Shown: positions 47,759 to 54,705 of the stretch, in pieces
Layout of the letters: every line of letters starts with the position of its first letter
Numbering within the stretch: the stretch's first letter is position 1
Assembly: GCF_002715865.1 (NCBI RefSeq)
Contig: NZ_CP017696.1
Location: 124,001 to 188,000, forward strand
Reading direction: 5' to 3'
DNA length: 64,000 nucleotides
Source: Bifidobacterium asteroides DSM 20089
GTDB lineage: Bacteria > Actinomycetota > Actinomycetes > Actinomycetales > Bifidobacteriaceae
Program-made: the position numbers and the translations under genes
The notes under the pieces: model-generated
What the model saw: only the letters and a program-made list of their open reading frames with translations
Databases searched by the model: none
What the model was told of the DNA's origin: nothing

Positions 47759-47989
47759 ATGATTCAGGTCATGAGGATGTGGAGCATGTTCGTCCATTTC
47801 CAGCCTCGGATTGGATCGTTGTGGGCGACGATGGCCATCGGCCCTGTGTTCGTCGACATCATTGACTACCTCCTGCTCCTCCTCATTCCGACGGAAACAG
47901 CGGCTCATTGTCGCTTCCGTCCGGATGGCGGAGATTCCCGTGCCAGTGCGCGGATCGGCAGGAGCGAGAGGAGAGTGGCATTAGCATGA
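47759..47989 (+). CDS. Small hydrophobic protein coupled to cydB (candidate bd-oxidase accessory subunit)
   Basis: 76 residues, no family recognised. ATG 47759 has a full AGGAGG six bases upstream, and its TGA overlaps the cydB ATG (ATGA). An N-terminal amphipathic stretch (MIQVMRMWSMFVHFQ) is followed by one strongly hydrophobic segment of about 25 residues (SLWATMAIGPVFVDIIDYLL and LLLIP) and a basic tail. The first 45 codons show strong GC third-position bias. Position, size and single helix recall the CydX/CydS class of small bd subunits, but the sequence does not obviously match either. An earlier ATG at 47738 is in frame. Confidence 0.6.
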   Translation: MIQVMRMWSMFVHFQPRIGSLWATMAIGPVFVDIIDYLLLLLIPTETAAHCRFRPDGGDSRASARIGRSERRVALA

Positions 47990-49038
47990 GTTTTCTACAA
48001 GGTTTATGGTTCTTTGTCATCGGCCTGCTTTTTGCGGGATTCCTTCTGCTTGAAGGGTTCGACTTCGGCGTTGGCATGGCCACCAGGTTCGTGGCCCGTG
48101 ACGGTGATGAGCGCGCCACCTTCATGAGGGCTATCGGCCCCCACTGGGATGGCAACGAGGTCTGGCTGATTACAGCCGGCGGTGCGATGTTTGCTGCTTT
48201 CCCGCTCTGGTACGCCTCCCTTTTCTCGGGGTATTACCTCTTGCTCTTCCTGGTGCTGGTCTCCCTGATTCTGCGTGGCGTCTCATTCGAGTTCGCCTCC
48301 CATGCGCTGACCAGCCGCGAGCGTGGTGTCTGGCAGTGGGCCAACTTCATCGGTTCGCTTTTCGCGCCATTCTTCCTGGGTATGATGCTGACCAGCCTGA
48401 TCCAGGGCATCCCTATGGATAAGAACGGCGATGCCTGGCCCGGGTTCTTCGACGTGTTCAACTGGCTCTCTGTAGTCGGCGGCATTGCTGTAGTCTTCTT
48501 CAGCTTTGTTCATGGCCTGCACTTCCTGAGCCTGAAGTTGGGTGCCATGGATTCCCGCCGGATGCTCAACGTCAGCGAGAAGGCCTACTGGATTGCCTAT
48601 CCGGCCCTGGTCGTCTTCGTGCTCCTGGCCATCTTCAACACCGACTTCTACAAGGCACGTCCCCTGTCCACCTGGCTGATCACCGTCATCATCCTGGCAT
48701 CAGTGATCGGAGGCCACGTTGCCGTCTTCAAGAAGCACGGCGGCTACGCCTTCACCTGCTCGGGCATCACCCTTATGGCCATCATCGCCTTTATCTTCAA
48801 CGGGCTCTTCCCGCGGGTGATGATTGCTGACGATCCGGCACACAACCTGCTGATCCAGGATGCCTCGGCCTCGCCGCTGACCATGAAGATCATGACTGTT
48901 GTGCTTTGCATCTTCCTGCCTATCATGCTGGCCTACTTCATCTGGAGCTACTTCATCCAGCGCAAGCGGCTGGACACCGATGGAGCTCATCTGACCTCAC
49001 CTGTGGCTCCTTCGGCCACCGTGGCTGAGACCGTCTGA
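47986..49038 (+). CDS. cydB: Cytochrome bd ubiquinol/menaquinol oxidase subunit II
   Basis: 350 residues, about eight helices. LWFFVIGLLFAGFLLLEGFDFGVGM is the CydB N-terminal helix with the conserved GFDFG motif, followed by IGPHWDGNEVWLITAGGAMFAAFP, the WDGNEVW signature. It pairs with CydA to form the oxidase core that reduces O2 to water. It starts inside the stop of the small ORF and precedes cydD by 61 bases. Notably cydA is not adjacent but lies 4.2 kb downstream. Confidence 0.96.
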   Translation: MSFLQGLWFFVIGLLFAGFLLLEGFDFGVGMATRFVARDGDERATFMRAIGPHWDGNEVWLITAGGAMFAAFPLWYASLFSGYYLLLFLVLVSLILRGVSFEFASHALTSRERGVWQWANFIGSLFAPFFLGMMLTSLIQGIPMDKNGDAWPGFFDVFNWLSVVGGIAVVFFSFVHGLHFLSLKLGAMDSRRMLNVSEKAYWIAYPALVVFVLLAIFNTDFYKARPLSTWLITVIILASVIGGHVAVFKKHGGYAFTCSGITLMAIIAFIFNGLFPRVMIADDPAHNLLIQDASASPLTMKIMTVVLCIFLPIMLAYFIWSYFIQRKRLDTDGAHLTSPVAPSATVAETV

Positions 49039-49099
49039 GAGCCAAAGGAGGCAGGGGGGCAGTGCTGGCAGGACCGGAGCGCATCCGGAGGGTAATGCA

Positions 49100-51071
49100 T
49101 TGATTGACAAAAATCTCTTCCGTTTCGACGGAGTCCGGTCCACCTTGGGCCTGCTGGCTGCCCTGTCCCTGGTTCAGGGAATAGGTGTGGTGGTTCAGGC
49201 CTATGGGTTGACTTTGGCTCTGGTGCGCATTTGGCACCTTCAGAACCTCAAGGTGCTGGTGGTGCCGGTGCTGATTTTTTTTGGCAGCCTACACCTGTCG
49301 ACAGCTCTGCGACGTGGCCAAGGATCGTATCGCCACCGACCGTGCAGATGCCATCGTAGCCGAGCTGCGGCCCCGTATTCAGGACAAGGTCTTCTCGCTG
49401 GGGCCCTCGGCACTGGCCCGGCGTGGCACGGGCTCGGCCGTCACCATGCTGGTGGATGGACTCGATCAGGTGCGCACTTACGTGCTGACGGTCCTGCCAA
49501 AGATGATGGACCTCATCTTTATTCCCCTGATTGTCCTGGTTGTGGTCTGGATCCAGGATGCAGGTTCCGGGCTCATCCTCATGCTTATGCTGCCCCTGCT
49601 CATCTTCTTCATGGTCATCCTGGGTCTGGCCGCCAGGGATCGCTCCAGTCGGCAGTATGCTCAATTCCGCAAGCTCAACACCAGGTTCATGGATACGGTC
49701 CTGGGTCTGCCGACCCTGAAAATGTTGGGCATAGACAAGGAGTACGAGGACGAGATCTATTCGGTCTCGGATCGTTTCCGCAAGAGGACCATGAGCGTTA
49801 TCCGGGTCGCCATGACCTCCACCTTTGCTTTGGACTTCTTTGCCACCTTGGCAATCGCCATCATGGCCGTTTTCTTGGGCAACAATCTGATCAATGCCAA
49901 GGTGGAGCTCTTTCCAGCCCTTTTGGCCCTGATTCTGGCCCCTGAGTACTTCATGCCCATCCGCCAGTTCGGAGATGATTTCCACGCCACGCTGAACGGG
50001 AAGAACGCCTTGGATGACATCGCGGATATGCTGGACCAACCGGAGCCCAAGCGCTTGGAGGAACTGGACTGGTCCGGGTGGAAGGAAGACAGCCACCTGC
50101 GTCTGAAGGGAATCGACTTCTCCTATCCTGGTCCCAAGCCGGTAGAGAGCAATGCTTCAGCCGGGGCGCAGATGGATGCCATGGCAAAGTCCGAGAGTCA
50201 AAAGCCCAGCAAGAAGAGACGCAAACCCAAGGCATCCAAGATTCATGACGGTGATGGGACGTCGGCTTCGGTGGGGCTCGGCTCCACGGCATCGAAGGGA
50301 ACCGGAGTCGAAACTGCTGCGGATTCACAGGTCAGCTGGTCTGACGGGGGCTCGGAAGAGCAGCCCCTTGCCCTGAATGGACTGGACTTCGACCTGCACG
50401 GCTTTTCCAAGGTGGCTGTTGTCGGCCGCTCCGGTGCCGGCAAGTCTACGCTGATGGATCTGCTGGCCGGATTTGACCAGCCCAAGGCAGGCACCATCGA
50501 CCTGGATGGTCATCAGCTGGAGCATTGCAACGTCGCTGCCTGGCAGCGACACATCAGTTACATTCCGCAGAACCCCTTCATCTTCCACGGCACAGTGGCC
50601 GACAATATTCGCTTCTACAATCAGGAAGCAGACGATGCCGAAGTAGCCCGTGCAGCCGATCGGGCTGGACTGACCGACTGGCTGAAAACATTGCCTGACG
50701 GTCTGCACACCCAAATCGGAGAGGGCAACCGCGGCATCAGCGGCGGCCAGGCCCAGCGGATCGCCCTGGCCAGGGGCATCCTGGATCCCTCGCGCGAAAT
50801 CCTGTTCTTTGACGAGCCCACAGCCCACCTGGACATCGAGACCGAATACGATCTGAAACAGACCCTGCTGCCCATCATGGACGGGCACCTGGTCGTCCTT
50901 GCCACCCACCGGCTGCACTGGCTGGCCAACATGGACTGGGTGATCATGCTGGAGCATGGACGAATTGTGGCCCAGGGCGATCCGCATGAGCTGATTGGAC
51001 AAGGCGGACCCTTGGACGCGCTGATCGATGAGATGGGAGGGAACCAGATTGCCGACTACCAGCAGGACTGA
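49100..51071 (+). CDS. cydD: CydD, ABC transporter for cytochrome bd assembly, reading frame broken at an 8-T tract
   Basis: TTG 49100 follows GGAGGG and encodes 60 residues with helix 1 and the start of helix 2 (LKVLVVPVLIFF). At T8 (49275-49282) the frame changes; with seven Ts it would read on as LIF-LAAYTCRQLCDVAKDRIATDR and continue to 51071, about 656 residues in all. The downstream part has Walker A GRSGAGKSTLM, signature ISGGQAQRIALARG and Walker B ILFFDEPTAHLD. CydDC exports cysteine/glutathione-type thiols or handles haem for bd assembly. A low-complexity Ser/Lys/Gly insert (about 70 residues) sits at the start of the ATPase domain. Sequencing error, slippage or true inactivation are all possible. 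Confidence 0.85.
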
Positions 51072-51090: not shown

Positions 51091-52950
51091 ATGGGATCGC
51101 CTAAGGCCTCCCGCCGCGGCCGCGGACTGTCGGGCTACATGCATATCTGGCACCGGGACCATTGGTTCTGGCCCTACCTGCGTCAGAACAAGGGGCTGCT
51201 TGCCCTGATCTTCTTCCTGGGAACCATCACCTTCGTATGCGCAGCCGGGCTGATGTTCACCTCAGGCTTCCTGATCAGCAGGTCTGCCCGTCATCCCTTC
51301 AACATCTTTGCCGTGTACGTGCCGGTGGTCCTGACCAGGGCCTTCGGCATTGGACGGCCTACATTCAAGTACCTGGAGCGCATCAAGAGCCATGACTGGG
51401 TGCTCCGAGTGGTTTCCAAGCTACGGGTTCAGCTTTACCGCACCCTTTCGAAGGACGCAGCTTTCCTGAACGAGCATGAGCGTACAGGCACGGTACTTGG
51501 CATGCTCTCGGACGATCTGGACCACTTGGAGAACTTCTATCTGCGCACCATCTTCCCTACGGTAGTGGCCTACATGATGTGGGTGGTGGTCACCATAGCT
51601 GTAGGCGTCTTCTCCTGGCTGACCTCGCTCCTACTCTTCCTGCTTTTCGCTCTGATCCTGATCCTGATCCCGCTGGTCTCGCTGGCTTATTCAGACGGGC
51701 GTTATGACATGGAGAAAGCGCGGCGGCAGGACCAGTACACTGCAGTGACCGAGAGCTACATGGGCCTGGGGGACTGGGTGATCACTCGCCGTCGTCGGCG
51801 TTTTGTGGATACGGCGTCCGGCGACTTCAACGATATCGCCACCGGCCGCAGAGAGCAGAAGCGATTTGAACGCTGGCGCAACTGTGGTATCCAGATGATT
51901 TTCGCCCTTATGGTGGTGGCCCTGATTGTGGGGGGAGATCTGCGTATGACCAGCTCCACTTCCATAGCTGACTTCGCGGCAGCCGTGGTCCTGGCGGTTT
52001 TCCCCTTGGTCGACTGCTTCATCGTGGTCTCGCAGGCAGTGGCTGAGGTTCCCCTCTACACAGATTCGCTGGACCACCTGAATGATCTGACCGAGCGGGT
52101 CGAGTCCCGGCAAATTGCGCCAAGTCCCCAGACCAAGCTGGAGGGGCCGATCAAGTCAATCGTCTTCGATCATGTCAGCTTCTCCTACGGACCTGATGAC
52201 CCCCTGTTGCTGGACGACTTCAGCCTGCGGATTGAAGGTGGGCAGCGGGTGGCTCTGCTCGGTCCCAGCGGAGAGGGCAAGACAACGGTTCTTCAGCTGC
52301 TTTTAGGCGATCTGCGCCCCACCAGTGGCCGCATCCTCATCAACGACATACCAGTCGACGCACTGCAGGATCAGCGTCCTGAGCTCTTCGGCTACCTGAA
52401 CCAGCAGGCATTCCTCTTCAACACCACTATCGCCTCTAACGTGCGTCTGGGGGCCCCACAGGCTGATGATGACCAGGTTCGTCAAGCCTTGAAGGCTGTA
52501 CAGCTGGATCAGGTTGTTGCTGACATGCCGCAGGGAATCGACACGCCGGTTGATGAAGCTGGCGGTCGTCTTTCAGGCGGGCAGCGCCAGCGTCTGGCCC
52601 TGGCCAGGATAGTGCTCAAGCGTACTCCAATCATCCTTTTGGACGAGCCCACCATCGGTTTGGATCCCATAACCGAGCGCAGGCTCATGGCCATGATCTT
52701 CAAGGTCAGCCAGGATCGTACCCTTCTTTGGGTGACCCACCACCTGCAGGGGCTGGAGGAGGCCGACCAGGTCATCTTTATGCAGGACGGGCACATCGCC
52801 ATGCAGGGTCGGCCTGTCGACCTGTACCGGGAGAACGCCCGTTTCCGTGAACTTTATCGCATGGACGTCTCGGACGTGGACAAGGGTGCCGGTCAAGGGA
52901 TATACTTAAAGAAGCAGTCAGATTCAGATGGACGGAACCCTGTTGAATGA
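51091..52950 (+). CDS. cydC: CydC, ABC transporter for cytochrome bd assembly
   Basis: 619 residues from ATG 51091. Six helices (LLALIFFLGTITFVCAAGLMFTSGFLISRSA marks helix 1 and the conserved SxxLISRSA) are followed by an ATPase domain: LLGPSGEGKTTVLQL (Walker A), LSGGQRQRLALARI (signature), ILLDEPTIGLDP (Walker B), WVTHH (switch His). It forms the heterodimer with CydD. GGAAGAG lies upstream; the gene begins 19 bases after cydD ends. A basic 15-residue N-terminus precedes the first helix. Confidence 0.94.
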   Translation: MGSPKASRRGRGLSGYMHIWHRDHWFWPYLRQNKGLLALIFFLGTITFVCAAGLMFTSGFLISRSARHPFNIFAVYVPVVLTRAFGIGRPTFKYLERIKSHDWVLRVVSKLRVQLYRTLSKDAAFLNEHERTGTVLGMLSDDLDHLENFYLRTIFPTVVAYMMWVVVTIAVGVFSWLTSLLLFLLFALILILIPLVSLAYSDGRYDMEKARRQDQYTAVTESYMGLGDWVITRRRRRFVDTASGDFNDIATGRREQKRFERWRNCGIQMIFALMVVALIVGGDLRMTSSTSIADFAAAVVLAVFPLVDCFIVVSQAVAEVPLYTDSLDHLNDLTERVESRQIAPSPQTKLEGPIKSIVFDHVSFSYGPDDPLLLDDFSLRIEGGQRVALLGPSGEGKTTVLQLLLGDLRPTSGRILINDIPVDALQDQRPELFGYLNQQAFLFNTTIASNVRLGAPQADDDQVRQALKAVQLDQVVADMPQGIDTPVDEAGGRLSGGQRQRLALARIVLKRTPIILLDEPTIGLDPITERRLMAMIFKVSQDRTLLWVTHHLQGLEEADQVIFMQDGHIAMQGRPVDLYRENARFRELYRMDVSDVDKGAGQGIYLKKQSDSDGRNPVE

Positions 52951-53211: not shown

Positions 53212-54705
53212 ATGTTCACTGTATTGGGATTGTCTAGATTCCAGTTCGCCATGACGACGATATTCCACTTCTTCTATGTTCCTATGACCATCGGTCTGGC
53301 CCTGGCGGTCGCCATCATGGAGACCGTCTATGTGGTGACCAAGAAGGATGTCTACAAGAAGATGACCATGTTCTGGTCCAAGATCTTCCTGCTCTCCTTT
53401 GCGGTGGGTGTGGTAACCGGCATCATCCAGGAGTTCCAGTTCGGCATGAACTGGTCCAATTACTCCAGGTTCATGGGTGACATATTCGGCGCTCCACTGG
53501 CCATTGAGGCCTTGGTGGCCTTCTTCCTGGAATCAACTTTCATTGGCGTGTGGATGTTCACCTGGAACCGTTTCAAGCCTGCCGTGCATGCGGTCTTCAT
53601 CTGGCTGACCTTCCTGGGTTCCTCCATGTCGGCCATCTGGATTCTGGCTGCCAACAGCTTCATGCAGCACCCGGTTGGATTTGAGATCAACCAGGCCACC
53701 GGCCATGTGCGGCTGCGCAGTTTCGGTGACGTCGTATCCAATCCCCAGCTGTGGATTGAGTTCCCCCACGTCTTCTTTGCCGCTGTCTGCACAGGGGCCT
53801 TTGTGGTCATGGGTTGCAGTGCTTTCAGCCTGCTGAGGATGCATATGGGAAACAAGGACAAGGCCGTGGCCGCTGTCGAGGCCGACTCCGAGAAGCAGGC
53901 CAAGGTCAACTTGTTCACCAAGTCAATCCGTCTGGCCGCTCTGCTCGGACTTATCGGTTCCATCTGCGTGATCACCTACGGTGATTTACAGGGCAAGTAC
54001 ATCGTGACCGATCAGCCTATGAAGCTGGCTGCCACCGAGGCCATCTATGAAGACACCGGTGATCCCGCCCCCTGGAATGCTGTGGCTCTGATCAATGAGA
54101 AGGACCACAAGATCGAGGGGTCCGTCGAGATTCCCGGAGCCATGTCGCAGCTGGCTTACGGCAAGAAGACAGGTGCCGTCAAGGGCATGAACACCGTCAA
54201 TAAGGAGCTGCACGAGAAGTATGACGCCAAGTTTGGCAAGGACATGAACTACTACGTGCCGGTTACCACCCTATTCTGGGTCTTCCGTCTGATGGTCGGA
54301 ATCGGGTTTGCCTTTGCCCTGATATCCGCATTGGTGCTCTGGTTCACACGTAAGAAGAAGAACACACTGTTCACCTCGCGTTGGAAGCTCTGGATCATGG
54401 GTATTTTTACCTTTGCTCCCTTCGCTGCGACAACCAGTGGCTGGCTGGTGACTGAGCTTGGTCGCTATCCATGGCTGGTTTACGGTTATCAGACCATTGC
54501 CGATGGAGTTTCGCCCACCAGCACGGTGCCGAACCTGCTCTTCACCTGCATCGTCTACTTCCTGCTCTTCCTGGTTCTGGGCGGAGTTATGGTCTTCTAC
54601 ACCAGGAGAACCCTGCACCAGGGACCCTTCTACAAGCCGGATGACGGCAATGGGCCGCAGCCTGCCAAGGTGCATGGAGCACCGGCTCGAGTAGCCTTGG
54701 CCTGA
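53212..54705 (+). CDS. cydA: Cytochrome bd oxidase subunit I
   Basis: 497 residues, short Q-loop type. Haem residues fall at the E. coli positions: H19 (IFHFFYVP), E99 and E107 (IEALVAFFLES), H186 (EFPHVFF); FRLMVGIG supplies the Met haem ligand. SGWLVTELGRYPW is the GRQPW signature with Tyr replacing Gln. It binds haems b558, b595 and d, oxidises quinol and reduces O2. ATG 53212 follows GGGAGGA. The gene ends the locus before a very strong terminator. Confidence 0.97.
   Translation: MFTVLGLSRFQFAMTTIFHFFYVPMTIGLALAVAIMETVYVVTKKDVYKKMTMFWSKIFLLSFAVGVVTGIIQEFQFGMNWSNYSRFMGDIFGAPLAIEALVAFFLESTFIGVWMFTWNRFKPAVHAVFIWLTFLGSSMSAIWILAANSFMQHPVGFEINQATGHVRLRSFGDVVSNPQLWIEFPHVFFAAVCTGAFVVMGCSAFSLLRMHMGNKDKAVAAVEADSEKQAKVNLFTKSIRLAALLGLIGSICVITYGDLQGKYIVTDQPMKLAATEAIYEDTGDPAPWNAVALINEKDHKIEGSVEIPGAMSQLAYGKKTGAVKGMNTVNKELHEKYDAKFGKDMNYYVPVTTLFWVFRLMVGIGFAFALISALVLWFTRKKKNTLFTSRWKLWIMGIFTFAPFAATTSGWLVTELGRYPWLVYGYQTIADGVSPTSTVPNLLFTCIVYFLLFLVLGGVMVFYTRRTLHQGPFYKPDDGNGPQPAKVHGAPARVALA

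Follow-up and report, generated by a model that had tools for sequence, protein, structure and literature searches.

CydD is one half of the CydDC transporter that matures cytochrome bd oxidase. In the deposited genome of Bifidobacterium asteroides DSM 20089 the cydD frame is lost at a run of eight T residues (T8), and the question that this locus raises is whether the break belongs to the living strain or only to its sequence. The earlier note on this DNA had offered three options, namely a sequencing error, a recent inactivation or a homopolymer switch on bd oxidase assembly; the first two survive our analysis, with an error favoured, and the switch is unsupported. Respiration in bifidobacteria was first proposed for B. 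asteroides (PMC3447821), and if the type strain were truly without CydD, claims about respiration that draw on this genome would be mistaken.

The genes cydB, cydD, cydC and cydA adjoin one another on one strand (Table 1) in the same order as in B. asteroides PRL2011 (PMC3447821). The earlier note described a normal CydD N-terminus opened by a TTG codon with a strong ribosome site, and this holds: the GGAGGG motif is at normal spacing, the first 60 codons are 88-100% identical to those of 12 close relatives and the start is kept as TTG, GTG or ATG. The frame is then lost exactly at the T8 that the note had named. As it had also claimed, the rest of the gene continues in the other frame, with the Walker A (GRSGAGKST), signature (ISGGQ) and Walker B (ILFFDEP) motifs all intact. 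This part carries both the ABC transmembrane and the ATPase domain, and E. coli CydD (7zd5) is its top match in the PDB (E 9e-75). The gene resembles E. coli CydDC and BAST_0291 of PRL2011 in its best structural match, its ATPase motifs and, for PRL2011, its gene order; it differs from them in having an ~80-residue linker ahead of the ATPase domain and a frame that, in this assembly, is not continuous but shifted by +1 at T8. Uncorrected, the product would have 60 native and 221 out-of-frame residues. A second cydD copy was sought in the genome and rejected, the next best match being a different ABC protein (E 7e-37), and a search for the cydD locus in viral contigs gave no match.

Table 1. 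Features of the cydD locus. Positions are those of the window, the whole 64,000 nt stretch of DNA that was analysed.
Feature	Position	Strand	Evidence or remark
cydB (bd oxidase subunit II), intact	47986..49038	+	Pfam PF02322, E 4e-89
GGAGGG, Shine-Dalgarno-like, of cydD	49087..49092	+	Sequence; 7 nt upstream of TTG 49100
cydD 5' part, 60 native codons up to the break	49100..49282	+	Zero frame runs to a stop at 49945
Potential RNA hairpin GGUGCUGGU-GGU-GCCGGUGCU, terminator-like	49252..49272	+	-9.7 kcal/mol; 2 nt before T8
T8 homopolymer, point of frame loss in cydD	49275..49282	+	Sequence
cydD remainder, +1 frame, ~596 codons	49283..51071	+	Pfam PF00664 and PF00005; ATPase motifs intact
cydC, intact	51091..52950	+	Pfam PF00664 and PF00005
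cydA (bd oxidase subunit I), intact, 3' of cydDC	53212..54705	+	Pfam PF01654, E 1e-152

When aligned to E. coli CydD, T8 falls near residue 70 of 588, which fits a predicted position in the second membrane helix. A run of this length is not improbable per se, as at least one T8 turned up in 33 cases when the window was dinucleotide-shuffled 100 times; the unusual point is that this run interrupts a conserved gene, not that it exists. Ribosomal frameshifting was rejected as a way across the break, because U_UUU_UUU favours a -1 shift where +1 is needed and the shift site has no stop codon. Restart at TTG 49281 was rejected as well, since this codon is without a ribosome site and helix 1 would be lost.

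We compared the site with its counterparts in the honey-bee B. asteroides group, in which the cydD locus was found in 23 of the 26 congeners searched. The frame is continuous across the site in all 23. The tract is T2-T5 in 22 of them and T7, in frame, in the remaining one (B. mellis Bin7N), whose sister VRA_9sq has ATTTTTCTG at the same place. These lengths suggest that synonymous changes in Ile-Phe-Leu codons give rise to long T runs, which are then not retained. Evolved contingency tracts, in contrast, are maintained in relatives, and with T2-T5 in all but one congener the T8 of DSM 20089 is no conserved repeat switch. The earlier note had set this comparison of T tracts beforehand as a refuting test, and for nearly all of the relatives the result goes against a switch, in which populations of mixed T7 and T8 would alternate between assembling and not assembling bd oxidase and would have been selected for it. 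We regard such a switch as improbable, even though the run lies within a gene, the genome has no MutS and homopolymer slippage switches are in use in bifidobacteria (PMC9187656). Eight A/T residues are also short for a switch, and the likely contingency tracts of this genome are runs of G10-G19 in surface-protein genes.

If the break is real, it must be recent. For the 596 codons downstream of T8 the mean dN/dS is 0.090 in DSM 20089, as compared with 0.080-0.149 in the relatives with an intact gene, which leaves no room for a long period without function. An ancient pseudogene was rejected on the same grounds.

The quality of the assembly, a complete genome of 2,190,368 bp, bears directly on the question. 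A vanZ coordinate published for DSM 20089 (CP017696.1:1959032-1960146; PMC8950671) ends precisely at the stop codon of a matching open frame in it. In the 200 kb around cydD, ~76 conserved genes were tested and none but cydD is broken; candidate frameshifts of two relatives in this first 200 kb were rejected as false positives (start-region, intergenic or shadow-ORF). In a second 200-kb stretch, where ~110 genes were compared, the clearest break in DSM 20089 is in a transposase copy. Over the 400 kb, cydD and this one transposase copy are the only genes among ~180 compared that looked clearly frameshifted. The small number of breaks in both stretches suggests that the assembly is generally good, with long A/T runs as the exception. 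In one relative (G018, C1 720001-920000) one-base frameshifts were seen outside homopolymers, for example in a ~1650-codon gene that is intact in DSM 20089.

The whole assembly has eight A/T tracts of at least 8 nt, two of them intergenic and six within genes. Four of the six are out of frame: cydD (T8), hsdS (A9), an ABC transporter (A8) and an AAA/DUF4435 gene (A8). The other two, in a membrane acyltransferase gene and a 600-codon ORF, are in frame. Three of these four are one base over and the other (AAA/DUF4435, judged by its homologue) is one base short. In seven relatives ~10 coding A/T tracts of at least 8 nt are intact and no clear split was seen, one short case being ambiguous; apparent splits at other long A/T tracts of these genomes were rejected as gene boundaries or intergenic sites. 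The difference between 4/6 in DSM 20089 and 0/10 in the seven relatives gives a Fisher p of ~0.008 by hand calculation, on a mechanical scoring of split and intact genes in the relatives that could miss decayed ones. Codon-usage scoring, applied to A/T tracts of at least 7 nt, is too weak outside typical genes. Breaks concentrate at long homopolymers in DSM 20089, and more so than in its relatives. Frame breaks in this assembly track the homopolymer, not the gene, and this, together with the unconserved tract, runs counter to the switch on bd oxidase assembly raised in the earlier note, because the breaks fall on long A/T tracts whatever the function of the gene.

The ABC transporter gives the most direct comparison. 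The gene is split at A8 (genome positions 2132205-2132212), whereas stretches of 417-629 bp in three relatives (G003, G009 and G020) are identical to this locus except for an A7, which leaves the frame open. That this DNA is common to three other Bifidobacterium species suggests a recently spread element. The type I restriction specificity gene hsdS is split at the genome's only A/T tract of 9 (1932286-1932294); the split may be genuine, as a phase-variable switch of specificity, or may stem from the assembly.

On balance, we think it somewhat more probable than otherwise that the deposited DSM 20089 consensus has the length of this homopolymer wrong by one base, and we infer that the extra T is technical and not a real recent mutation. 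The cydD of the living strain would then most likely have T7 and be unbroken. The run itself would have come about by chance as the Ile-Phe-Leu codons of helix 2 (ATC/ATT-TTT/TTC-CTG/TTG) drifted synonymously, in which case nothing has evolved to slip at T8. An error is favoured by the singleton nature of the break, all 23 congeners with cydD being continuous; by the intact cydB, cydC and cydA and a downstream dN/dS within the range of intact relatives; and by the four of six long genic A/T tracts that are out of frame, with the ABC transporter contradicted by the A7 of relatives. Against an error, the assembly is otherwise clean over ~180 genes, and mobile or defence-type genes, which are often truly lost, hold three of the four out-of-frame tracts. 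A survey of 1106 prokaryotic genomes expected a singleton frameshift that is validated by BLASTp to reflect a sequencing error and not a true indel (PMC3711429), and many apparent pseudogenes have been ascribed to assembly error (PMC11017572). The cydD case is like these spurious pseudogenes in being a single one-base homopolymer indel, found once, in a gene that is otherwise intact and under purifying selection; it differs from them in being known from the deposited consensus alone. More likely than a type strain without CydD is a deposited consensus that should be corrected at a few long A/T runs, a point of consequence to users of this type-strain reference.

The main alternative is that a real T7 to T8 replication slippage occurred very recently, possibly becoming fixed in the type-strain culture, and that CydD, and hence bd oxidase maturation, is inactivated or strongly lowered. 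We see this as a serious possibility, but one that is appreciably less probable than not. A search of the genome for MutS found none (the controls worked); the genome has only NucS. NucS does not correct indels (PMC8228993), so a real mutation at a slip-prone T7 is plausible in this genome, and this counts against an error. High-frequency replication slippage at G tracts is documented in B. breve (PMC9187656), and the clean surrounding assembly is also consistent with a real change. CydDC is needed for cytochrome bd in E. coli (PMC10374445) and loss of cydD would, without rescue, probably be null. However, the E. coli RNA polymerase was reported to show ~10% deletion slippage at T8, as measured by rescue of a gfp reporter (PMC6260861); if T8 is real, non-programmed slippage may leave a few to ten per cent of the mRNA in frame and the cells may not be fully CydD-negative. 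Relaxed selection is not seen in the downstream part of cydD and the rest of the cyd genes are intact, which speaks against a real loss. So do the three further out-of-frame long A/T tracts in the same assembly, one of which is contradicted by the otherwise identical DNA of three relatives.

A hairpin with terminator-like character can be drawn just upstream of T8 (Table 1), and it could be argued that it promotes forward slippage of the RNA polymerase, such that a set share of transcripts would have U7 and encode full-length CydD. The hairpin is placed as is the stem-loop of the Roseiflexus IS630 element, where transcriptional slippage depends on the stem-loop just upstream of the slippery run and one base is omitted, which is the direction needed here (PMC5009743). 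In cydD, however, the slippery run is unconserved and any use of the hairpin would be hypothetical. Pairing is largely kept in relatives that have no slippery run, it follows from the codons for VLVVPVL and there is no double-sided covariation, so that the hairpin is best explained as a side effect of the protein sequence encoded here. No member of the family has a conserved frameshift. Additionally, transcription deletions rarely start in homopolymers across the E. coli genome (PMC5574713). Programmed realignment of this kind is, to our minds, very improbable. It is also quite unlikely that T8 is real and acts as a homopolymer dial on respiration, with bd oxidase assembly kept low by forward slippage of the RNA polymerase at the hairpin and U8 or toggled by T7/T8 replication slippage. 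Positions 49252-49282 of the window together resemble an intrinsic terminator (9-bp hairpin, 2 nt, U8) within the coding strand of cydD; if T8 is real, this element could also end transcription early, before cydC and cydA are reached.

Whatever the status of T8, poly-G tracts in genes for surface proteins look like the true contingency loci of this genome. The genome carries dozens of tracts of G10-G19. At genome positions 1068105-1079984 three tandem genes encode surface proteins of ~1200 residues with RCC1 repeats and Listeria-Bacteroides repeats, and they have tracts of G13, G15 and G14 that directly follow the signal peptide; of the three, only the copy with G14 is in frame. Judged by its sequence, the trio looks like a phase-variable surface-protein array. 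In B. breve, ON/OFF slippage has been described at G tracts of pilus genes (PMC9187656), a paper from which B. asteroides is absent. The cydD tract is similar to these in that it, too, is a homopolymer close to the 5' end of its gene and a one-base change restores the frame. The B. breve tracts, however, are G10-G12 in surface genes and occur across species, whereas that of cydD is a T8 in a respiratory assembly gene and is unconserved. G tracts spaced similarly to those of the RCC1-repeat array were seen in B. apousia (G004:C7 358080-370481). Almost every genome of the genus group has poly-G/C tracts of at least 10 nt, with 34 in DSM 20089 and up to 98 in another genome (G026), and these tracts are apparently a clade-wide reservoir of contingency loci.
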